Positions 5,528-59,470 of a stretch of 64,000 nucleotides of DNA are shown here, in pieces. A program made the translations under genes and the position numbers. The notes beneath the pieces were generated by a model that saw only the letters and a list, made by a program, of their open reading frames with translations, had not been told where the DNA came from and ran no database searches. Positions within the stretch are counted from its first letter, which is position 1. Every line of letters starts with the position of its first letter. The stretch comes from Arthrobacter jiangjiafuii (GTDB lineage Bacteria; Actinomycetota; Actinomycetes; Actinomycetales; Micrococcaceae). Location of the stretch: contig NZ_CP076022.1 of the NCBI RefSeq assembly GCF_018622995.1, forward strand, positions 1,426,001 through 1,490,000, given 5' to 3'.

Positions 5528-5974
5528 GTGGTTGATAGAAGAAGCTTAGGCTCATGGCTGGAAGGCCCTCCCTCCGACGAAAACTCCTGGCCGGGCAAGC
5601 GCCTGGGGCGGCCCAAGACAGGGCCCGGCAGTATTGGCCGGGTAGGTCCGCGCCTGGGGGCGATCATCATTGACTGGGCCATCGCCTCCGTCATCGCCTA
5701 CGCCTTTTTTGGCGGCTCTTCCACGGCCACGCTGGTCGTCTTCGCCGCCGAGCAGATTATCCTCGTGGCGCTGCTGGGCTACGGCATCGGACACCGCGTT
5801 TTCAGCCTGCAGGTCCAGAAGCTCGACGGGACCCCGGCCGGCCCGCTGGCCGCCCTCGTCCGTACCCTGCTGCTCTGCCTGGTGATTCCGGCAGTGGTTT
5901 TCGACGCCGATCAGCGCGGCGTGCACGACCGGGCCATGGGAACCGTCCTGGTCAAGGTTCAGCACAAGCGCTGA
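5528..5974 (+). CDS. RDD family membrane protein
   Basis: 148 residues with the RDD signature near residue 40 (RVGPRLGAIIIDWAIAS) and about three membrane segments. These include a loop YGIGHRVFSLQVQKLDG typical of the family. The C-terminus has HDRAMGTVLVK. The molecular role is unknown; some RDD proteins have been linked to ion exchange. The start is a GTG at 5528 with a TAGTCT element six bases upstream and no Shine-Dalgarno sequence. It is divergent from glnA across a 252-base gap that holds the GlnR operator. Confidence 0.9.
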   Translation: MVDRRSLGSWLEGPPSDENSWPGKRLGRPKTGPGSIGRVGPRLGAIIIDWAIASVIAYAFFGGSSTATLVVFAAEQIILVALLGYGIGHRVFSLQVQKLDGTPAGPLAALVRTLLLCLVIPAVVFDADQRGVHDRAMGTVLVKVQHKR

Positions 5975-6005
5975 CGTACCAGGGCCGGCCGCACGGCACC
6001 CGCCC

Positions 6006-6151
6006 AGCGTCGACGTCGTGCCCTTTGCTCCGGTCGAGTGTCGACGTCGTGCCCTTCCCCTCCGTCGACTGTCGGGCTGATGCCGTTTTCGCGCGCTTAT
6101 TCGGACATGATCTCCACGATGGGGGACGGGGTCCGGCATGATCTCCACACT
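6006..6151. repeat. 31-bp repeat array with central inversion (locus 1: three plus, two minus copies)
   Basis: The 312-base convergent gap 5975-6286 holds no gene. It contains five copies of a 17-bp core (consensus ASTGTSGRSNTSRYGCC): plus-strand cores at 6006, 6037 and 6068, and minus-strand cores at 6104-6120 and 6135-6151. Start-to-start spacing within an orientation is exactly 31. The innermost plus and minus cores are separated by 19 bases. The 14-base stretches between cores are also partly conserved (CTTTGCTCCGGTCG, CTTCCCCTCCGTCG). The same layout recurs at 38198-38250 and 58630-58743. Confidence 0.8.
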
Positions 6152-6187
6152 CGGCGGTTCAGACTCGGCCACGGTCGGGACAAAGCG

Positions 6188-6215
6188 AAAGGGCCCCTCC
6201 GAAGAGGGGCCCTTT
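6188..6215 (-). terminator. Intrinsic terminator (DUF4191 gene side)
   Basis: Perfect 12-bp stem (6188-6199 with 6204-6215) closed by a four-base CGAA loop, with A/T runs at both ends. It lies about 70 bases beyond the stop of the minus-strand DUF4191 gene. Confidence 0.8.
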
Positions 6216-6286
6216 GTTGTGCAACGTCTGGTGTGCGCCGCAACGCTCGCTGTGCTGCAGCGTCTGCCGGTCAGCTTTCTTCCGGG

Positions 6287-7039
6287 CTAGCGCCCGCGGG
6301 AAGCCTTACGGTCCGGGCGGGCCTTGTACGGGTCAATGCCCTTGGGGATCGGCAGGCGCGTACCGAGGGCGGTCAGCCGCTTGTTCACGGCCTGGACCTC
6401 CTGCTTGGTCAGGGCCTTGGGCAGCTTCTTGGCCTTCTTGGCCACCTGGGACAGCGGGGTCAGGTTCTCGCCGCGGCCGCTCTGGATGATGTGCACGGGA
6501 ACGTTCGGCGCGATGCGGTTCATCTTGCGGCGTTCGCCGTCGGCCAGGGCCTTCGCACGGCCCGGGGCACCTTCGGTGACCAGGATGATGCCCGGGCGGC
6601 CGATGGCGCGGAACACGGCTTCCTGGCTGCGCGGGTTGATGGCAACCGGCTGCTCTTCCAGGATCCACCCGCGGCGCAGGATGCTTAGGGCAGCGCCGGA
6701 GGCACCGGGCTGGCCTTCAATCTGCGAAAAGGCCGCCCGCTCGGCGCGGCGGGAGAGGATGAACACGGCTGCCAGCAGGCCCAGCGGCACTGCGATGATC
6801 AGCAGGGTGATCCAGTTGTCGATCAGCAGCCCGATGATCAGCCCGACGGCGATGATGCCCAGGAAAGCTCCCAGCATCAGCCACACGACGTTGGGATCAT
6901 TGCGCCGCGTCATCTTGAAGACGTCGGCGATCTGCTTCATGCGGCCCGGGCCTTTATTCTTCTTCTCCGCTTTGGGCTTGCGGGAGAAGAGACCGCGGCG
7001 GGCGCTCTTGGGGGCGTCTGAATCTGTGCTGTTGGCCAT
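6287..7039 (-). CDS. DUF4191 family membrane protein
   Basis: 250 residues: a basic N-terminus (SARRGLFSRKPKAEKKNK), two adjacent membrane helices at about 50-95 (VVWLMLGAFLGIIAVGLIIGLL, then ITLLIIAVPLGLLAAVFIL), and a soluble C-terminal domain ending in a basic tail. This matches DUF4191, regularly found beside lipA in actinobacteria. The function is unknown; the conserved position suggests a link to lipoate or envelope metabolism (inference). A TAGAAT element lies nine bases before ATG 7039, so it may have its own promoter as well as lipA read-through. Confidence 0.92.
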   Translation of the reverse strand: MANSTDSDAPKSARRGLFSRKPKAEKKNKGPGRMKQIADVFKMTRRNDPNVVWLMLGAFLGIIAVGLIIGLLIDNWITLLIIAVPLGLLAAVFILSRRAERAAFSQIEGQPGASGAALSILRRGWILEEQPVAINPRSQEAVFRAIGRPGIILVTEGAPGRAKALADGERRKMNRIAPNVPVHIIQSGRGENLTPLSQVAKKAKKLPKALTKQEVQAVNKRLTALGTRLPIPKGIDPYKARPDRKASRGR

Positions 7040-37167: not shown

Positions 37168-38163
37168 ATGACGATCTCCATGCCTCCGGAAATTCCTGGA
37201 CCCGCGACGGGCCTGCGCTGGCGGGCCATCTCGGCCGAAGACGTTGACGCCTGGCTGGAACTGGTCCGGCGCATCGCCGCAGTGGACAAGCCGGGATATG
37301 TCCAGCAGCGTGCGGATTTGGAGCATGTCCTGGCCGCCAGCTCGGACAACCCGGCCAGGGACACCCTGTTGGGACTGGACCGCAACGGCGTGCCGCGCGC
37401 CTACGGCTACCTGGTCCGGACCGAAGGTTCAGACAAAATCCACGGTGCCGGGGGAGTGGACCCGCAGTGGCGCCGTCGCGGTATCGGGACCGCCATGCTG
37501 CGTTGGCAGCAGCAGCGCGCCCGCGAACGCCTGCTGGAAACCGGCCACGAGAAGGGCCTGCTGCGGTTCATGGCCGAGGAGGACAACGCCTCGCACGTGG
37601 CACTGTTCCACGCGGCCGGTGGGAAGGTGGTGCGCTACTTTACGGAGATGAGCCGGCCGCTGGATGCCGGCATTGCGGACGTGCCGCTGCCGGAGGGTTT
37701 GGAATACGTCACCTTCCACGAGGACATTTCCGAGGCACTGCGCGTAGCGCACAACGAAGTCTTCCGGGACCACTGGGGCAGCGAGGAACGGGATTCCGAG
37801 CGCTGGCAGCACAACGTGGAACACCCGCACTTCCGCGCGGACTGGACCTTCGTGGTGATGGACACCGCCGCCGGGGAAATTGCCGGCTACAACATCGCCT
37901 CCTTTGATCCGGAGGCCAAAAACCTCACCGGCTACACCGAGGGCTACACCGAGCTGCTCGGTGTGCGCCGGAATTGGCGGGGCCTGGGCCTGGCACCGGC
38001 CATGCTGGGAGAAGCGATGCGCCGGTACAAGGCGTCGGGCATGGAGCGTGCCGGTCTGGGCGTGGACACCGAAAACCCCTCCGGCGCGCTGGGGCTCTAT
38101 GAGCGGCTCGGGTACGAGCCGACCTTCCGCGAGGTCTTTTTCGACTTCCACGTGCTGCCGTAA
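37168..38163 (+). CDS. Tandem GNAT-domain acetyltransferase
   Basis: 331 residues containing two GNAT folds. The first (about 20-165) has the acetyl-CoA loop PQWRRRGIGTAML. The second (about 175-331) has a matching V/R-x-x-RGLGLA sequence (RRNWRGLGLAPAML) and the final GLYERLGYEPTFREVFFD strand. Two-domain GNATs include mycothiol synthase (MshD), but the sequence does not let me claim that. The substrate is unknown. It has its own leaderless-type promoter, 34 bases after cydDC, so it need not be cotranscribed with the oxidase genes. Confidence 0.88.
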   Translation: MTISMPPEIPGPATGLRWRAISAEDVDAWLELVRRIAAVDKPGYVQQRADLEHVLAASSDNPARDTLLGLDRNGVPRAYGYLVRTEGSDKIHGAGGVDPQWRRRGIGTAMLRWQQQRARERLLETGHEKGLLRFMAEEDNASHVALFHAAGGKVVRYFTEMSRPLDAGIADVPLPEGLEYVTFHEDISEALRVAHNEVFRDHWGSEERDSERWQHNVEHPHFRADWTFVVMDTAAGEIAGYNIASFDPEAKNLTGYTEGYTELLGVRRNWRGLGLAPAMLGEAMRRYKASGMERAGLGVDTENPSGALGLYERLGYEPTFREVFFDFHVLP

Positions 38164-38197
38164 GGCGCAAGTCGAAGATCGCCCGGCCGGTACTCCC

Positions 38198-38250
38198 ACT
38201 GTGGAGTTGATGCCCTAACGGCCGTCCGGCAGGGGCGTGAGCCCGACACT
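38198..38250. repeat. 31-bp repeat family with central inversion (locus 2: one plus, one minus copy)
   Basis: Core ACTGTGGAGTTGATGCC at 38198-38214 (plus) and AGTGTCGGGCTCACGCC on the minus strand at 38250-38234. They are separated by exactly 19 bases, as at the other two loci. It lies between convergent GNAT and hypothetical genes. Confidence 0.75.
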
Positions 38251-38274
38251 CGATGCCGGCCGCACAGAGGTCCG

Positions 38275-38334: not shown

Positions 38335-38910
38335 TTAGGGACGCTGGACGAGGGCGGCCGCTAAACCCGCGGCCCAGCCCGGCGCACTGCCGCCGTGCGG
38401 CGGGCGGATGGTTCCGGCGTCGATCCCCGCGCCGTGAAGCAGCCAGGACACGAGCGAATTCGAGTTCCACATGTCGGCCGAGCCGGGCACCTTGCGTCCC
38501 CAGATATGGCGCGGCACCTGGGCTGTGCGTTGCAGCATCGCGGCGCCGGCTGAGGGGGAGAGCCGGAATTCGACAGGTGCCGCGGCCGCATACGGGCGGT
38601 CCGGCAGGACGCCGTCGCGCCAGCAGCGGACCTCGTAGCGGAACAGTCGTGAGCGGCCCAGCCAGCCCAGCCCCACCGGTCCCGTGGCTACGACCCCGCG
38701 GGCTGGATCCTGCCGGACCCAGGCCGGGGACATTTCAATGACGTACTCCGCCCCGCCCAGAAGCACGATGAGGGCACTGTGGAACAGCGGCTGCGGTACA
38801 CGGTGCTCCAGCCGGGCGTGGACGGATTCCCACCATCGGCTGGTGTGGACCACCACGTGTCCGCCCGCTCCGACCGGCAGCCACCACAGCTGTACCCGGG
38901 CCGTATCCAT
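38335..38910 (-). CDS. Hypothetical protein with a possible permuted papain-like fold
   Basis: 191 residues from ATG 38910, four bases after the stop of the upstream DtxR-family gene, so it is translated in the same operon. Notable segments: FHSALIVLLGGAEYVIEMSP (His44, Glu59), GPVGLGWLGRSRLFRYEVRCW, and WNSNSLVSWLLHGAGI followed by a PPHGGSAPGWAAG tail. A histidine-strand-glutamate segment followed much later by an NSNS helix recalls circularly permuted NlpC/P60 or LRAT-like proteins. In those the helix normally starts with catalytic Cys, which is Asn/Ser here. The function is unknown; the fold idea is weak inference. Confidence 0.7.
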   Translation of the reverse strand: MDTARVQLWWLPVGAGGHVVVHTSRWWESVHARLEHRVPQPLFHSALIVLLGGAEYVIEMSPAWVRQDPARGVVATGPVGLGWLGRSRLFRYEVRCWRDGVLPDRPYAAAAPVEFRLSPSAGAAMLQRTAQVPRHIWGRKVPGSADMWNSNSLVSWLLHGAGIDAGTIRPPHGGSAPGWAAGLAAALVQRP

Positions 38911-42374: not shown

Positions 42375-44849
42375 ATGACCAGCAACGACAAACTGCTGCA
42401 ACAACCGCAGGTGCGGGTAGTTGACCTCAAGATCGAGGGCATGACGTGCGCTTCCTGCGTCAACCGGGTGGAGCGCAAACTCGGAAAGATCGACGGCGTC
42501 GAAGCCACGGTGAACCTTCCGCTGGAATCCGCGCGGGTTCACGTGCCCGAGGGCGTGAGCGACGAGCAGATCCTGCAGACCGTTGACTCCGCCGGTTACA
42601 AGGCACGGCTGGTGCACCCGCACGGTTCACGGGCCACGCATACGGCGGCCCGGGCTGGAACCGGGAATGACGACGGCGGCCGCCACAGCGTCGAAGGCAC
42701 CGGACCCACCGGCACGGACCACACCGGCATGGGCCCCGAGGACACGGACCACGACGGCATGGACCACATGGCCCACGGCGGCACCGCCGCAACACTCCGC
42801 CCGCGCCTGATCCTGGCCGGCGTGCTGACCGTGCCCGTCCTGCTGATTTCGATGCTTCCGGCCCTGCAGTTCAGCAACTGGGGCTGGGTCGCCGCGCTCC
42901 TGGCGCTGCCGGTGGTGACCTGGTCAGCATGGCCTTTCCACCGGGCGGCAGCCATCAATGCCCGGCACCTTGCCTCCACCATGGACACGCTGGTCTCCAT
43001 CGGCGTCGCGGCCTCCTATCTGTTCTCCCTGGCCACCCTCGCCGCCGACCCGGGCCTGACCGCAGCCCCGGAAATGGCCGGCATGGGGGGAGCGGGGGAG
43101 GTCCACCTCTACTTCGAGGTGGCATCAGTGGTGACCACTTTCCTGCTGCTGGGCAGGTACCTCGAAGCCAATGCCAAAACACGCGCCGGAGATGCCCTCA
43201 AGGCCCTGCTGACCCTGGGGGCGAAGGACGCAGTGGTGCTGCGCAACGGCACCGAGGTCCGGATCCCGGCCGACACCCTCAGCGTCGGAGACCTGATTGT
43301 GGTCCGCCCCGGCGAGAAGATCGCCGCCGACGGCATCGTCACGCAGGGCCAGTCCGCTGTAGACACGTCCCTGATCACCGGCGAATCGGTTCCCGTGGAG
43401 GTGGGCCCGGGCGACGCTGTCACCGGCGCCACCGTGAACACCTCGGGCCGGCTGCTGGTCACCGCGACCCGGGTGGGCAGCGAAACCACCCTGGCCCAGA
43501 TGGGCCGGCTGGTCAGCGAGGCACAGTCGGGCAAGGCGCCAATCGCCCGGCTGGCGGATCGGATCAGCGCCGTGTTTGTGCCGATCGTGCTGGGTATTGC
43601 GGTGCTGACCTTTGTGCTGTGGCTGCTCCTGGGCGGCGACCTGCAGGCAGCGTTCACTGCCGCCGTCGCCGTGCTGGTGATCGCCTGCCCGTGTGCGCTG
43701 GGCCTGGCCACCCCGGTGGGCCTGCTCACCGGCACCGGGCGCGGCGCCCAGCTGGGCATCCTGATCCGGGGCCCGCAGGTGCTCGAGGACACCCGGACCG
43801 TGGACACCATCGTGCTGGACAAGACCGGCACTGTGACGGACGGCCGGCTCTCCGTGGTGCGGACCCTGGCCTTCGCGACGGCCGCCTCCGGCGCGCCTGC
43901 CGAAGCCGGCGCCGCCTCGCCTGCGAGCCGGGCGGCCGAGGCCGAACTGCTCCGGCTGGCCGGAGCCGTGGAGGCGGCGGGGGAGCATCCCATCGCCGTC
44001 GCCATCGCTGCCGCGGCGCAGAACGCAGCCGACGACGGCGCCCTGCCGGGCCACGGTTTGTCCCCGCTGCCGGCGGTTACAGGGTTTGATTCGGCCCCCG
44101 GCGGCGGCGTCCGCGGAACCGTGGAAGGCCACGCCGTCGTCGCCGGCCGTCCCGGCTGGCTCCAGGAGAACGGCATCACCCTGACCGGGGAAACCCGGAC
44201 CGCCCTCCGCACGGAACAGGAGGCCGGATCCACGGCCATTCTGGTGGCGGTGGACGGGCGGACTGCCGGCATCATCAGCCTGCAGGACAACCTCAAGCCG
44301 GGCTCGGTGGCCGCCATCGCCCGGCTGCGGGCCCTGGGCCTGCGCCCGGTGCTACTGACCGGTGACAACGCGGTGGTGGCCGCCCGGGTGGCCGACGCCG
44401 TCGGCATCGCTCCGGCCGATGTGCTGGCCGACGTGCGCCCTGAAGGCAAGGTCGAGGCGATCAAGCGGTTCCAGGCCGAAGGTGCCACGGTAGCCATGGC
44501 CGGGGACGGCGTGAACGACGCCCCGGCACTGGCGCAGGCGGATCTGGGCATCGCCATGGGCTCCGGCACCGACGTCGCCATCGAAGCGGCAGACCTGACC
44601 GTGATGGGCAACGACCTGGGACAGGTGGCCACCGCAATCGAGCTCTCCCGGCGCACCCTGGCCACCATCAAGACCAACCTGTTCTGGGCCTTCTTCTACA
44701 ACGCGGTCGGCATTCCGGTGGCGGCCCTGGGGCTGCTGAACCCGATGATCGCCGGTGCCGCGATGGCCGCCAGCTCCGTGCTGGTGGTGGGGAACTCGCT
44801 GCGGCTGCGCCGCTTCGGTAAGACGGGGCAACGCCTTCCTGCGAACTAA
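42375..44849 (+). CDS. copA: Copper-exporting P1B-type ATPase
   Basis: 824 residues. N-terminal HMA domain with GMTCASC (near 22-28). Then a His/Met/Asp/Gly-rich loop (about 105-137, including [11 protein letters not shown]) likely to bind extra metal. Eight helices follow; the transport site Cys-Pro-Cys is at 438-440. The phosphorylated Asp482 is in DKTGT, and the hinge is [20 protein letters not shown]. This is the Cu(I) efflux pump of the csoR-copZ-copA operon. GGAAGGA precedes ATG 42375. Confidence 0.97.
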
Positions 44850-45315
44850 GGGTGCCGGGGTGCGGGGGCGGCACCGGCTGGGCAATCCATGGCGGCCATC
44901 AGGCTTATCCGGTTCGGTGGATTTGCCCGGACCGGCGTGCTGATGTCGCCATAGCTGCGCCTTCGGCGGGCCGGGCTCTGTCCAAACCCGCCATAGCTGC
45001 GCTTTCGGCGCCGTGGTTGCACCGAACGTACACGTCCGGTGGGATAAGGGCAGCCCGGGCCGTCGAGAGTACACATCTGGTGATTTTCCCGGCGGCGAAG
45101 TCGCCATAGCTGCGCTCCCGGCGCCCCGGGCTGTGGTCAAACCCGCCATAGCTGCGCTCTCGGCGCCGCGGGCCGTGTTCAACCCGCCATAGCTGCACAC
45201 TCGGCGGCCCGGTTGCACCGAACGTACACGTCCGGTGGGATACGGGCAGCCCGGGCCGCCGAGAGTGCTGGCCCCAGGGGACGCCGGAGCGTTGGCCCGG
45301 AAGCCGGGGCCCGGG
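44850..45315. repeat. 466-base convergent gap with 41-42-bp repeats and an 82-bp duplication
   Basis: No gene is seen. CGCCATAGCTGCGC-type units start at 44947, 44989, 45102, 45144 and 45185: spacings 42, 113, 42 and 41, all in one orientation. A second block beginning TTGCACCGAACGTACACG is attached to units 2 and 5. As a result 44989-45070 and 45185-45266 form a near-perfect 82-bp direct duplication 196 bases apart. The core differs from the 31-bp family but shares a GAGTGTG-CAG start when read on the minus strand. Confidence 0.85.
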
Positions 45316-47841
45316 TCAGCCGGCCGCGGGGTCCTCGCCCGGCTCCACGGGCGTGCAGCTCGGGCCCACGAGGTCCACCGGATTGGTCAGCGGAATACCG
45401 GAGCCGTCCCGCCGCCCGTGCTCGGTGGGCAGCGCCCGCGCCACGCCGTTGGCTGCCGCGGCCTTGGCCGGACCGTGCCCGGCCCACGCCACGGAGAGGG
45501 CGTCCTCGCCCTTGAGGAAACGGTGCGCCCGGACGCCGCCGGTGGCACGGCCCTTGACCGGATACTCGGCGAATTGGGTCACCTTCACCGACCCGCCCGG
45601 AGTGCCCGGCAGGGTCTCACTGCCGGTGGAGACGGTGACAACGACGGCGGCCGGATCGTTTTGCGCCACCACGCCGAAGAACACCACCTTGTCATCGGCG
45701 CCAAGCTTGATCCCGGCAACACCGCCGGCGGTGCGGCCCTGCGGCCGGACCAGACCTGCACTGAAGCGCAGCAGCTGCGCCTGTTCGGTGATGAACACCA
45801 GCTCGTCGGTGTCGTTCTGTGCCACGCCTGCGCCCACCACTTCATCCTTGGGCTTGAGCGTGATCGCTTCCCAGTCGTCGCGGTTCAACGGATAGTCGGG
45901 GTTGACCCGCTTCACCGTGCCGTTGCGGGTACCCAGCGCCACGACCTCGTTCAGCGGCACCATTGCAATCAGCTTTTCGCCCTTGCCCAGGGTGATGAAA
46001 TCCTTCACGGGCACCCCGCCGGCCAGGTTCGGCAGTCCGGAGGTGGGCGGCAGTGCCGGCATGTCCAGCACCTGGATACGCACCATCCGGCCCGAGGACG
46101 TCACCGCCCCGATCTCGCCGCGCGCCGTCGTCTTCACCACCGAACGGAAGACGTCGTGCCGCACCCGCTGCCCCGCTTCGGTCAACGGCTCCTGGTTCGA
46201 GGTCCGGGCCAGCTGGCCCGAGGCAGTGAGGATGACCCAGCAGGGATCGTCGGCGATTTCCAGCGGCAGGGCAGCCTTGGCGCCCTTGCCGGTGGCGGCG
46301 GGAGCAGCGGCAACACCCTTGAGCGGTGAGGCGGCCTCGGATTCGAGCAGCACCGTGCGCCGCGGCGTGGCGTACTTGGCAGCCACTTCACCGAGCTCGT
46401 CGGAGACCAGGGCGCGCAGCCGCGGCTCGGAATCGAGGATGTCCTGCAGCTCCTTGATGGCCAGCAGCAGTTCCTCCTGCTCCTTCTCCAGCTCAATCCG
46501 GGAGTACTTGGTCAGCTGGCGCAGCCGCAGTTCCAGGATGTGGTTGGCCTGGATCTCGGTGAGGTCGTAGATGGCCATCAGGCGTTCGCGGGCCTGGGCG
46601 GTCTCATCCGAGGAACGGATGATCTGGATGACCTCGTCAATGTCCACGATCGCAATGAGCAGGCCCTGCACCAGGTGCAGCCGGTCCTGCTTCTTGCGCA
46701 GCCGGAAGGCGGTGCGCCGCCGGACCACGCCCAGGCGGTGCGCCACGTACACCTGCAGCAGTTCCACCAGGCCCAGGGTGCGCGGCTGGCCGTCCACCAG
46801 GGTCACGTTGTTGATGCCGAAGGAATCCTCCATGGGCGTGTACCGGTAGAGCTGGGCCAGCACGGCGTTGGGATTGAAGCCGTTCTTCAGCTCGATCACC
46901 AGGCGCAGCCCGTGGCTGCGGTCGGTCAGGTCCACCACGTCGGAGATGCCCTGGAGCTTCTTGGAAGTGACGGCGTCCTTGATCTTCTCAATGACCTTTT
47001 CCGGGCCCACCATGTACGGCAGTTCGGAGACCACCAGCCCGGTGCGGCGGGCGCTGAGCTGTTCCACCTCCACCTTGGCGCGGGTCTTGAAGGAGCCGCG
47101 GCCGGTGGCGTAGGCGTCGCGGATGCCGTCCAGGCCCACGATCCGGCCGCCGCTGGGCAGGTCGGGGCCGGGAACGAAGCGCATGAGCTCTTCCAGCGTG
47201 GCGTCCGGGTTGGCGATCAGGTGCTGGGTGGCGGCAATGACCTCGCCGAGGTTGTGCGGGGCCATGTTGGTGGCCATACCCACGGCGATGCCGGTGGCTC
47301 CGTTGACCAGAAGGTTCGGGAACGCCGCCGGGAGCACCTCGGGCTGCAGCAGCTGGTTGTCGTAGTTGGGGACAAAGTCCACCACGTCTTCGTCCAGGTG
47401 GTCCGTCAGCGTCAGGGCCGGTGCGGCCAGCCGCGCCTCCGTGTACCGGGAGGCGGCGGGGCCGTCGTCGAGCGAACCGAAGTTTCCATGCCCGTCGATC
47501 AGCGGCAGGCGCAGGGCCCAACTCTGGGCCATCCGCACCATCGCGTCATAGATGGCCGAGTCGCCGTGCGGGTGCAGCTTGCCCATCACCTCGCCCACCA
47601 CGCGGGCGGACTTCACATGGCCGCGGTCCGGCCGCAGGCCCATATCCGCCATCATGTACAGGATGCGCCGCTGGACGGGCTTGAGGCCGTCGCGGGCATC
47701 GGGGAGGGCGCGGGAATAGATCACCGAGTACGCGTACTCGAGGAAGGAACCTTCCATCTCGGTGGTGACATCAATGTCGATGATGTTCTCGGCGATCTGC
47801 TCGCCGGGTGAGGTCTTGGAGACGGGTTGGCGCCGGGCCAT
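45316..47841 (-). CDS. parC: DNA topoisomerase IV / second type II topoisomerase, subunit A
   Basis: 841 residues. Catalytic Tyr133 in [10 protein letters not shown]; the quinolone-determining region [17 protein letters not shown] is intact, with Ser105. The C-terminal beta-pinwheel (about 520-830) has repeats such as [12 protein letters not shown] and lacks a clear GyrA box, as in ParC. It is the partner of ParE at 27.1-29.2 kb. I chose ATG 47841 (ARRQPVSKT); a slightly longer start at 47862 is possible. Neither has a strong ribosome binding site. It is divergent from the GNAT fusion gene. Confidence 0.93.
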
Positions 47842-57421: not shown

Positions 57422-57781
57422 ATGGCCCCGAAGCGAGCTGCCACGCCATCGGGCCCGGACACCCCGGTGCCTGTCAGCGCCATGCCCGCACGGGGCAGGG
57501 TGTACAGCGGCGGATACGTGCAGTCGATCACCGTGGTTCCGGCAACTGAGCCGCCGCGGTTCACGGCCATGGTGGAAGACCCCGGTGCCGCCTACCGCGA
57601 TCCGCTCTCCCGCAAGCCCGTGGCCAGGGTCCGCCTGGTCTGGGTAGGCCAGAGGCGGGTCCCGGGTGTCGAGGCCGGCACCCGGCTGGCATTCGAAGGC
57701 ATGGTCAGCACGGTGGACAGCTATCCCACGATCTACAACCCCCGTTACGAAATCATCGGGCGTCCGGAGGACGAATCATGA
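57422..57781 (+). CDS. Small OB-fold nucleic-acid-binding protein
   Basis: 119 residues. A basic Ala/Pro-rich start, then an OB-like barrel (GGYVQSITVVPATEPPRFTAMV, ARVRLVWVGQRRVPGVEAGTRLAFEGMV, NPRYEIIG). Related actinobacterial proteins are annotated as OB-fold DNA-binding. Four bases after DUF3710 and overlapping the DUF3159 start by four bases (ATGA), so the three are translated together. Confidence 0.88.
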   Translation: MAPKRAATPSGPDTPVPVSAMPARGRVYSGGYVQSITVVPATEPPRFTAMVEDPGAAYRDPLSRKPVARVRLVWVGQRRVPGVEAGTRLAFEGMVSTVDSYPTIYNPRYEIIGRPEDES

Positions 57782-58581
57782 CTGATCCCCAGGGCAACGT
57801 GCCCCACGGCGCCGTGCCCCAGGGTGCCGACCGACCGGAAGCTCCGCGGGCAGTAAATGCCACGGCGGGGGAGCCGGAGACCGGTGCTGCCGGTTCTGCC
57901 GGCCAGCCCAGCCTGGGCGACGTCGCCGGCGCTTATGCGGCCAAGGCCGGAGTGGAGCGCGGGGATGACGGCCAGATCGATGTGCTGAAATCCGTGGGCG
58001 GGGTCCGGGGGCTCGCCGAGGCGATCGTGCCGGGCCTGCTGTTTACCCTGATCTTCACGATCACATCGGGGCTGTATGTTTCGCTCGGTGCCGCCGTGGC
58101 CTCTGCTGCCGTCTTCTCGGCGGCGAACCTGGTCCAGAAGCGCCCGCTGATGCAGTCCCTCACGGGTGTCATCGGCGTCGTCATCTGTGCCGTGGTTGCC
58201 CTGCGCAGCGGCAGCGGCACCGAGTTCTTCCTGCCCGGTTTCTTCCTCAACGCCGCCTACATCCTGGCGTTCATTGTGTCGATCCTGGTTCGCTGGCCCG
58301 TGGCCGGTCTGCTGTTCGGCTTCATCCGCGGCGAGAACCTCGAGTGGCGCTCCGACCGGAAGCGGATCCGCGTCTATGCGTTGGCGACGTGGATCATCAT
58401 CGCCGTGTTCGCGCTGCGCCTCGGTGTCCAGCTGCCGCTCTATCTGGCCGACAATGTCGCAGCCCTGGGCACCATGCGCCTGGCCATGGGCGTGCCGTTG
58501 TATGCGCTCGGACTCTGGCTGGCCTGGATGGTCTCCCGGCCGCTGGCCGTGCCGGACGTCCCGGCGGAATCCCGGGGCTAA
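57778..58581 (+). CDS. DUF3159 family membrane protein
   Basis: 267 residues. A ~70-residue hydrophilic start is followed by DVLKSVGGVRGLAEAIVPGL, which opens the DUF3159 domain. Five to six helices follow (for example TSGLYVSLGAAVASAAVFSA, VVICAVVALRSG, AFIVSILVRWPVAGLLFGF). The motif RKRIRVYALATWIIIAVFALR is typical. Function unknown; it is the last gene of the dut-DUF3710-OB-DUF3159 block. The convergent gap downstream holds a 31-bp-family repeat element. Confidence 0.92.
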   Translation: MTDPQGNVPHGAVPQGADRPEAPRAVNATAGEPETGAAGSAGQPSLGDVAGAYAAKAGVERGDDGQIDVLKSVGGVRGLAEAIVPGLLFTLIFTITSGLYVSLGAAVASAAVFSAANLVQKRPLMQSLTGVIGVVICAVVALRSGSGTEFFLPGFFLNAAYILAFIVSILVRWPVAGLLFGFIRGENLEWRSDRKRIRVYALATWIIIAVFALRLGVQLPLYLADNVAALGTMRLAMGVPLYALGLWLAWMVSRPLAVPDVPAESRG

Positions 58582-58629
58582 CCAAATTCGGTTAGCCGAT
58601 CCCTTGGCCGCGCCCGCACCGCCGCGCCG

Positions 58630-58743
58630 AGTGTGGGGCTCATGCCGAAATAGCCGACTTTTTCCAGCGTGATCCCGACAGTCGACGCTGCGAAAGGGCG
58701 TGATCCCGACAGTGGATGGCGCGAAGGGCGTGATCCCGAGAGT
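58630..58743. repeat. 31-bp repeat array with central inversion (locus 3: one plus, three minus copies)
   Basis: Plus core AGTGTGGGGCTCATGCC at 58630-58646. Minus cores at 58666-58682, 58697-58713 and 58727-58743 (ACTGTCGGGATCACGCC type), spaced 31 and 30 bases. The innermost pair is separated by 19 bases, as at the other loci. Convergent gap 58582-58795, between DUF3159 and TrkA genes. Confidence 0.8.
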
Positions 58744-58795
58744 GGATGGCGGATAAGGGTGTGGGCGAGTGCAGCCCGGCACGGAGGCGGGAGCT

Positions 58796-59470
58796 CTAAT
58801 CCTTCGCCGGCAGCCCGGGAAGCAGCACCGCACGCAGGTCGTCCTCGGCGCTGATCGTGCAGATGAAGAACAGCTCGTCGCCCGGCTCGATCACGTCGTC
58901 GTTGCTGGGCGTGATCGGGGCGTCGTCGCGCAGGATGGCCGTAACCGTCGTGTCCGCGGGCCAGTCGATCGAACCCAGGGTCTTGCCGCTCAGCGGGGAA
59001 TCGGCGGGAACGGTGAACTCCACCATCGAGGCCACACCGGTCTGCAGCGTCAGCAGCCGCACCAGGTCGCCCACCTCCACCGCTTCCTCCACCAGCGCCG
59101 TCATCAGGCGCGGCGTGTTGACTGCGACGTCGACACCCCAGGAGTCGTCGAACATCCAGTCGTTCTTCGGGTTGTTCACCCGTCCCACGGTCCGGGCCAC
59201 GCCGAACTCGCTTTTGGCCAGCAGCGAGACCACCAGATTGACCTTGTCGTCGCCGGTCGCGGACACCATCACATCGGCTTCGTCCAGCATGGCGTCCTTG
59301 AGCGTGGTCAGCTCGCACGCGTCGCCGATCAGCCAGCGGGCACCGATCAGCCCGCTGCGCCCCACCACCTCGGGCTTCTCATCGATGAGCAGCACATCGT
59401 GGTGATGGGAGAGCAGCTCCCTGGCAATTGAGGATCCAACGCTCCCGGCGCCGGCAATTACAACTTTCAC
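58796..59470 (-). CDS. TrkA-family potassium-uptake regulatory protein (second of pair)
   Basis: 224 residues: RCK N domain with KVVIAGAGSVGSSIARELL and ligand-binding acid in LLIDE (about 1-120), then an RCK C domain (about 135-215). Cytosolic gating subunit of a Trk/Ktr-type K+ channel, binding NAD(H) or nucleotides. It overlaps the upstream TrkA gene by four bases. The pair corresponds to the CeoB/CeoC type tandem of mycobacteria. No membrane partner (TrkH/KtrB) is in the window. Confidence 0.92.
   Translation of the reverse strand: MKVVIAGAGSVGSSIARELLSHHHDVLLIDEKPEVVGRSGLIGARWLIGDACELTTLKDAMLDEADVMVSATGDDKVNLVVSLLAKSEFGVARTVGRVNNPKNDWMFDDSWGVDVAVNTPRLMTALVEEAVEVGDLVRLLTLQTGVASMVEFTVPADSPLSGKTLGSIDWPADTTVTAILRDDAPITPSNDDVIEPGDELFFICTISAEDDLRAVLLPGLPAKD

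Follow-up and report, generated by a model that had tools for sequence, protein, structure and literature searches.

REP and BIME repeats are best known from Proteobacteria, and their GTAG type is tied to RAYT transposases. The stoperators of mycobacteriophage L5 represent another kind of dispersed element, namely, asymmetric, oriented protein sites scattered in intergenic DNA. In a survey of REPs (PMC3733652), these elements are described as short, scattered and intergenic, as lying mainly at co-directional and convergent junctions, and as having a family content that varies from species to species; the class is defined by palindromic units and a GTAG or CGTC tag, dimers of unlike arms are common, and head-to-tail dimers are rare. 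The survey ties the GTAG REPs to RAYTs, leaves the CGTC REPs without a dedicated transposase, and reports for two REP-rich genomes that most REPs at convergent junctions are located within 20 bp of both stops (PMC3733652). Arthrobacter, Micrococcus and Actinobacteria are not named in the main text of the survey, which mentions untagged REP-like families in M. tuberculosis (PMC3733652). In E. coli, according to another study, the gyrase motif is ~130 bp long and symmetric with a 10.75-bp GC periodicity, and both BIME-2 elements and the DNA downstream of transcribed units are enriched in gyrase cleavage sites (PMC6379681).

The window analysed here is a whole stretch of 64,000 nucleotides (C1:1426001-1490000) from the single-contig genome of Arthrobacter jiangjiafuii (G000; 3,593,579 bp). 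The basic module of the repeats that it contains is composed of two asymmetric cores of ~17-21 bp, which are inverted and a fixed distance apart, and several families (cores 1, 2 and 3) share this layout. In the genus of the window, this module is extended by further tandem cores, usually at a spacing of 31 bp and in some cases of 41 bp. The features of the window are as follows.

6001-6156, no strand assigned: core-1 array of three plus and two minus copies, with 17-bp cores at 6006, 6037 and 6068 (+) and at 6104 and 6135 (-)
5528-5974 (+) and 6287-7039 (-): flanks of this array, an RDD-family gene and a DUF4191 gene
6187-6217, no strand assigned: separate terminator-like hairpin with A/T flanks, which adjoins the DUF4191 stop (by eye and RNA folding)
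38193-38255, no strand assigned: minimal core-1 doublet of one plus (38198) and one minus copy (38234)
37168-38163 (+) and 38335-38910 (-): flanks of this doublet, a GNAT gene and a further gene
44946-45204, minus strand: core-3 sister array, with 21-mer minus copies at 44946, 44988, 45101, 45143 and 45184 and within-run spacings of 42 and 41
45022-45083, plus strand: diverged core-3 plus arms, 21-mers from 45022 and 45063, 41 apart (seen by eye, missed by the script)
45218-45279, plus strand: two more core-3 plus arms, from 45218 and 45259, 41 apart (by eye)
42375-44849 (+) and 45316-47841 (-): convergent genes that flank the core-3 array
58625-58748, no strand assigned: core-1 array of one plus (58630) and three minus copies (58666, 58697 and 58727)
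57778-58581 (+) and 58796-59470 (-): flanks of this array, a DUF3159 gene and a TrkA-type gene

A sequence-only reading of this DNA had reported eleven copies of a 17-bp core in a fixed geometry, and all eleven were recovered in position and orientation, with an inner distance of 36 at all three core-1 loci and a period of 31, once 30. Seven of the copies match the consensus of that reading exactly, three (6006, 58666 and 58727) have one mismatch, and that at 6104 has three. The reading had counted three convergent junctions; a fourth one in the window (44850-45316) was overlooked, and it carries the core-3 sister array with its 41-42 bp period, in which the plus arm at 45063 precedes the minus copy at 45101 by 38. 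At one mismatch or fewer, the 17-mer has ten matches in the window, every one of them an array copy, while at up to three mismatches it is not enriched (56 found, 62.8 expected); thus, the core-1 signal consists of close copies and geometry. Rfam gave no match in the window at the gathering threshold.

Profile searching and PWM clustering of fetched stretches yielded ~29 core-1 arrays in the A. jiangjiafuii genome. The profile (A1, R1), built from 60 copies, has 133 matches at E<=10, and of 33 clusters in the fetched stretches, 29 whose best PWM score reaches 19 were kept and four with lower scores were dropped; two retained arrays (1706724 and 2940236) have one strong copy each. The genome-wide search proposed by the sequence-only reading, for which random spacing would have spoken against that reading, revealed a strict spacing instead. 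A PWM trained on 60 such copies was used for a spacing-blind count, which comprised 127 matches (score >=17) within 310,035 bp, made up of the window and the stretches around matches. Of the 61 distances between neighbours of the same orientation, 55 are 31 bp (30, 32 and 41 bp twice each), and a plus copy is followed by a minus copy at 36 bp in 27 of 28 cases, the remaining distance being 67, or 36+31. One Markov-shuffled control of those stretches gave no PWM match. The inverted pair, taken as a 16-mer, a 19-base gap and a 16-mer with up to three mismatches, was found at 25 places in the genome, and its reversed control at none. Plus copies followed by minus copies at 36 bp are accordingly the standard arrangement, as first described, but the minus-to-plus order is also seen, with five spacings (25, 36, 36, 47 and 67 bp).

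The distribution of core 1 among species is patchy. At E<=0.01, the profile finds it in three of 29 genomes of the genus (67 matches in G000, 23 in G014 and 5 in G021), and the exact-geometry pattern (<=2 mismatches) is present in two of 39 genomes, G000 and G014, and absent from all 14 genomes of other families of the order. Among 197 genomes drawn from the family, the R1 profile at E<=0.005 matches four (G000 43, G095 4, G114 1 and G154 1), of which G114 and G154 were rejected as array carriers, having single matches with no partner copy. Among 20 contig stretches that contain the exact core-1 pair pattern, a PWM array occurs only in that of Arthrobacter sp. ATA002 (L131), where it is the same array as in G014; the other 19 have none. 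Two conserved genes of the G014 assembly appear to be split in two frames (L180/L181 and L210/L211), which suggests indel errors, so that spacings of 30 or 32 bp in G014 may be assembly errors.

Sister cores extend this distribution. Samples of G004, G001 and G007 showed an excess of lag 31 and/or 41 when scanned for direct repeats irrespective of core, and the repeats in question are made up of core 2 (TCYWTCGTGCAGATMASGGGC; A2, R2), with plus copies and then minus copies. A. jiangjiafuii has core 2 as well, in one case next to a core-1 array (L102), and so do G011 and a second genus (G094, genus g40); in the family draw, the R2 profile at E<=0.01 matches ten genomes, with more than two matches only in G007 (59), G011 (20), G000 (10) and G094 (6). 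The core-1 consensus has CGTCG just before it, and the core-2 consensus does not. Core 3 (CCGARAGYGCAGCTATGGCGG), which forms the array with 41-42 bp spacing in the window, is present also in G004. Its short pattern has 39 matches in A. jiangjiafuii against 5 in the control and at least one match in 115 of the 197 family genomes, with counts outside A. jiangjiafuii near those of the control (G024, 7 versus 3); a core-3 cluster in G219 (L342) was rejected as a tandem repeat with a 93-bp unit and a coding-like sequence. When the intergenic DNA of six genomes was scanned for repeat lags without reference to any core, there were ten loci for lag 31, nine of them core 1 or 2, nine loci for lag 25, and none to six for every other lag between 20 and 89. 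No arrays of these cores were recognised by eye in the lag scans of samples of G103, G152 and G138. At the RDD/DUF4191 junction of G004 (L219:19100-19690), a ~200-bp tandem duplication of lag 213 contains a core like core 2 (CGTACAGCTAACGGGC), which is possibly a fourth family.

The L5 stoperators share with these repeats the asymmetric, oriented sites in intergenic DNA; unlike them, the Arthrobacter arrays are chromosomal, with sites phased both in tandem and in inversion, and no array was found in the phage and viral searches made. Plasmids gave no match at E<=0.1 to one core-1, one core-2 and one core-3 array, nor phages to one core-2 array; the exact tandem core 2 was not found in viral contigs, and the two viral contigs that match the core-1 pair pattern are without arrays. 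A plasmid or phage origin was rejected on the basis of these searches.

The spacings were compared in an array collection from eight genomes. For core 1, the plus-to-minus distance is 36 in 33 of 40 cases, and the others (67, 68 and 98) are expected when a weak copy is skipped; the minus-to-plus distances are 25, 36, 36, 47, 57, 67, 93 and 106. For core 2, plus to minus is 48 in 32 of 34 Arthrobacter cases (one 47, one 38) and 38 in two of four in G094 (the rest being 70 and 79), and minus to plus is 44, 53-56 (eight cases) or 96. Core 3 has plus-to-minus distances of 38-39. Same-orientation spacings in the range of 33-51 bp are 41 bp in 24 cases and 40 and 37 bp in one each, that is, 40-41 bp in 25 of 26, several of which belong to one array. 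With the cores aligned by eye on a GT that they share, the two GTs on either side of the centre are 46 bp apart in core 1 and in core 2 of G094, 46-47 bp in core 3, and 56 bp in core 2 of Arthrobacter. Because the spacing variants differ by ~10-11 bp, the step that side-by-side proteins on one helical face would impose, a bound protein would have to lie on one face of the helix.

Among the functions proposed in the sequence-only reading (a bidirectional terminator, a buffer between converging polymerases, or a protein-binding array), it is the protein-binding array that we favour. Each core is a putative binding site of a sequence-specific DNA-binding protein or of a DNA-wrapping enzyme, and the element would act on DNA, as an anchor, a roadblock or a topology site behind genes, and not as a terminator hairpin. 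For the account as a whole, in which the arrays are a RAYT-less, REP/BIME-like dispersed intergenic element that acts on DNA, carries putative phased protein sites and grows by unit duplication, we put the chances at about even.

The location of the arrays was evaluated with genes called by a codon-usage caller made for this analysis. The 29 arrays of A. jiangjiafuii occupy 14 convergent, 14 co-directional and one divergent junction; the corresponding counts for the array-free junctions (>=60 bp) of those stretches are 18, 73 and 41 (Fisher test; convergent excess p 1e-4, divergent deficit p 0.001). The sole divergent array (1706724) is bordered on one side by 1.9 kb in which no gene was called. 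In this genome, the arrays follow one gene or more and are almost never located between divergent genes. Co-directional junctions with arrays are as frequent as convergent ones, so the element is not tied to convergent genes; at co-directional junctions, the placement is loose, the median distance being 135.5 bp to the stop codon upstream and 179.5 bp to the start codon downstream. All arrays lie between called genes except that at 798544, whose outermost weak copies overlap a gene end by 26 bp, and an equal occurrence inside genes and divergent promoters, which the sequence-only reading had named as telling against it, was not seen. Elsewhere, counting arrays with both flanks within 500 bp, divergent junctions account for 2 of 12 in G007, 1 of 11 in G014, 1 of 6 in G011, and 2 of 2 in genus g40.

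In this placement, the arrays resemble REP/BIME elements, being intergenic and co-directional or convergent in 28 of 29 cases (in other species less strictly). Further common traits are the short, scattered units, the frequency of unlike arms, and family content that changes with the species. They differ from them in that 31/41-bp head-to-tail tandems dominate, that the genus lacks a detectable RAYT, and that the units are not hairpins. Single 31-nt units fold with a mean z of +0.37 for core 1 and +0.12 for core 2 (the first 90 units each of 182 and 171, respectively, against mononucleotide shuffles). The RAYT domain Y1_Tnp, PF01797, was found in none of the 29 genomes of the genus at E<=0.001, in a search whose control was positive in 5 of 14 known genomes, and mobilisation by a RAYT was rejected for that reason. 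Since CGTC REPs also have no dedicated transposase, the absence of RAYT does not exclude a CGTC-like kind, and it is because the palindromic-unit test failed for both core 1 and core 2 that the arrays are not filed as REPs. No published description of these arrays was found in a literature search that left aside most subscription journals and bioRxiv; the statement of the sequence-only reading that the layout belongs to no named family holds within the searches made, but the placement is that of REP/BIME elements.

The position behind genes also bears on a different explanation, which we consider unlikely: the arrays may be strong sites for DNA gyrase or another topoisomerase. By wrapping gyrase, they would relieve positive supercoiling behind genes, a role proposed for BIME-2 in E. 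coli. The placement behind genes and at convergent junctions, the divergent depletion in A. jiangjiafuii and the dyad symmetry would all be expected of such sites. In addition, A/T content oscillates along dyad-centred arrays with a period of 10.3 bp in 33 core-1 and 10.5 bp in 32 core-2 arrays over ~140 bp (p 5e-15 and 4e-22, respectively, against the intergenic background), and 17 of 33 and 31 of 32 arrays, respectively, exceed the 95th percentile of the background. This is comparable to the symmetric, periodic ~130-bp motif and to the cleavage in BIME-2 and downstream of transcribed units in the account of E. coli gyrase (PMC6379681). However, the 10.3-bp periodicity of whole core-1 arrays can be partly a mere harmonic of the 31-bp repeat period; inside single units, core 1 shows no significant periodicity (p 0.25), and the effect is only moderate in core 2 (p 0.04 and 0.015) and core 3 (p 0.003, 8 units). 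Owing to this weak within-unit periodicity, the A/T line carries less weight. Moreover, the arrays, unlike BIME-2 and strong gyrase sites, have strongly conserved, sequence-specific cores, which are unexpected of a degenerate gyrase motif, and the minimal doublets span only ~60 bp; gyrase binding at the arrays is hypothetical.

A still smaller chance is left to RNA hairpins, in the form of bidirectional terminators or 3'-end stabilisers of the flanking transcripts. The inverted layout suits this explanation, and the inner pairs fold better than shuffled sequence (mean z -1.59 for 33 core-1 and -5.63 for 32 core-2 pairs); hairpins are consequently possible, but the pairing is not being kept. 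The inner arms of core 1 agree at 342 of 493 positions, compared with 354.8 +- 6.4 after shuffling (29 pairs; 98.75% of shuffles reach the observed value), or at 380 of 544, compared with 391.3 +- 6.4, when 32 pairs are taken; those of core 2 agree at 447 of 588, compared with 466.7 +- 6.1 (28 pairs; 99.95% reach it). The arms are thus less alike than shuffled arms, and compensatory changes between them were not found in Arthrobacter. Folding of the whole arrays at the three window loci gave z of -0.02, -0.76 and -2.36, two of the three being little better than shuffles, and tandem copies of the same sense would add nothing to a hairpin.

Furthermore, terminator-like hairpins of another kind already stand at two of the junctions. 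The separate hairpin in the window (6178-6224) folds with z -4.94, and by eye a hairpin follows the DUF4191 stop in all 15 genomes viewed of the 29, A. jiangjiafuii included, as another follows the ribosomal protein L9 stop in likewise 15 viewed of 29. Core-1 matches at these two junctions occur only in A. jiangjiafuii and are missing from the 14 congeners, so that the hairpins are also present where the array is absent. A scan for terminator-like patterns made no call in the three array regions, and the same strict scan also missed the hairpin at 6187-6217. The long hairpin or bidirectional terminator proposed earlier is therefore unsupported in A. jiangjiafuii, considering the anti-matched arms, the weak folds, the separate hairpins at two junctions and the 14 of 29 co-directional arrays.

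A relative of core 1 in another genus behaves differently. Through the core-1 profile, a doublet 62-63 bp long was detected at scattered places in G095 (genus g41); searching with DNA gave 26 matches at E<=10, many of them being both strands of one palindrome, and 11 of the 12 loci tried have a complete doublet (A3), one contig-end locus with a single arm being left out. In these doublets, 14 of 27 pairs are changed on both sides (shuffled mean 7.7; reached by 0 of 500 shuffles), 86.2% of cells are paired (shuffled mean 83.5; reached by 15 of 500), and the arms agree at 249 of 297 positions, compared with 233.6 +- 7.5 (2.9% of shuffles reach it). Four of the 11 doublets are convergent and located 10-20 bp from both stop codons, which is close to both stops as in REPs and favours an RNA hairpin there; another convergent one is farther from one gene, and the remainder are four co-directional, one divergent and one without a called right neighbour. 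The core-1 relative is a maintained palindrome in G095, and core 1 forms palindrome-avoiding arrays in Arthrobacter. Hence, the RNA folding and the compensatory test suggested by the sequence-only reading turned out in its favour for the folding of inner pairs and for the compensatory changes of G095, but against it for the arms of Arthrobacter.

The G095 form also resembles a REPIN, as a scattered, palindromic inverted doublet of ~62 bp. The two arm types occur in either order (L378 and L379), as expected if the doublet disperses as a unit, and dispersal of an inverted doublet as a unit is seen in G095 alone, whose 11 doublets lie apart from one another and share their arm types. The Arthrobacter elements are unlike REPINs in their array form, in the absence of self-complementarity within units, and in the lack of a detected RAYT in the genus. 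Minimal doublets such as 38193-38255 stand alongside the arrays in Arthrobacter, which suggests, with less weight, that the doublet may spread as a unit there too. A comparison of the G095 flanks with other fetched genomes gave no empty sites.

With regard to the origin of the arrays, they probably grow by duplicating one unit, as the sequence-only reading had proposed. Tandem neighbours of core 1 in A. jiangjiafuii share 995 of 1173 bases, compared with 861 +- 10 for shuffled partners, and the copy number differs between orthologous arrays, both of which support such growth. One or both flanking genes are shared with an A. jiangjiafuii array by 4 of 14 arrays in G007, 3 of 6 in G011 and 3 of 13 in G014, as well as by two G021 loci. 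One gene junction may carry different cores (1, 2 or 3) in different species, and cores also occur next to each other. Between COX15/CtaA and UbiA, with both flanks matching, core 1 is present in G000 and G014 and core 2 in G011. At the junction of 44850-45316, G000 has core 3, G004 has cores 3 and 2, G007 has three core-2 blocks, and G003 has a core-2 pair with core-3-like repeats (by eye); no array is present in G011 (115 bp) or G001 (91 bp). For the three core-1 junctions of the window, the gap is compact (-4 to 154 bp) in 12 of 15 orthologue comparisons, and in one the junction could not be located; at the RDD/DUF4191 junction, G004 has 575 bp with another repeat, and G011 has an extra gene. 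Some of the shared sites are inherited, and others may reflect replacement or a preferred target. Dispersal and empty sites would point to mobile arrays, and no target-site duplication of the kind left by a MITE was evident by eye at four Arthrobacter junctions compared with other species, whose flanks are divergent.

The patchy distribution of core 1 (3 of 29 genus genomes), the turnover of sites between species and the ordinary neighbours are also what a purely selfish or neutral repeat would show, one that spread and expanded without a host function and whose geometry reflects only the mobilising enzyme. We regard this as improbable; the quantisation in helical turns and the different cores at the same junction in different species speak against it.

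A broader version of the DNA-acting, protein-binding element can be offered only tentatively, namely, that a DNA-binding protein family of Micrococcaceae organises the chromosome through helically phased inverted arrays behind genes and that this is a new system, in which the core specificity switches between lineages (1, 2 and 3) while the geometry and some sites persist. Such switching would imply that the binding protein and dozens of arrays co-evolve. The arrays are a repeat family in an actinobacterial genus without a detected RAYT, with strict phasing, cores that vary between species and a constant layout. One core takes two forms: it is kept as a hairpin in one genus, and in another it builds arrays that avoid hairpins. 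Whether the host binds and uses REP-like repeats or only tolerates them is an old question, which thereby becomes testable in a soil bacterium.

Finally, a coding sequence (31 bp is no multiple of 3, and the arrays are intergenic apart from the 26-bp overlap), a CRISPR-like array (there are no spacers) and a transposon end beside a transposase were rejected, the last because a Pfam scan of 59 flank sequences, of which 54 matched some family (E<=0.001) and one (L105:3000-3221) was a mis-set stretch and not a called gene, contained no transposase family. Among uncalled ORFs at 11 array loci, the best coding scores are 14.2 and 9.5 (both L079) and the others are at most 3.4. Gaps of more than 1 kb beside arrays in A. 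jiangjiafuii (L101:3609-4737 and L095:3551-5431) have no ORF with a good coding score. Downstream of ribosomal protein L9 in the same genome, the next gene (L108:1557-2864) is of the DnaB type. The region after rplI (L183, L185 and others) contains several motifs TTATCCACA / TGTGGATAA, which we take to be DnaA-box-like, and the A. jiangjiafuii array after rplI is located between the hairpin and this motif cluster.
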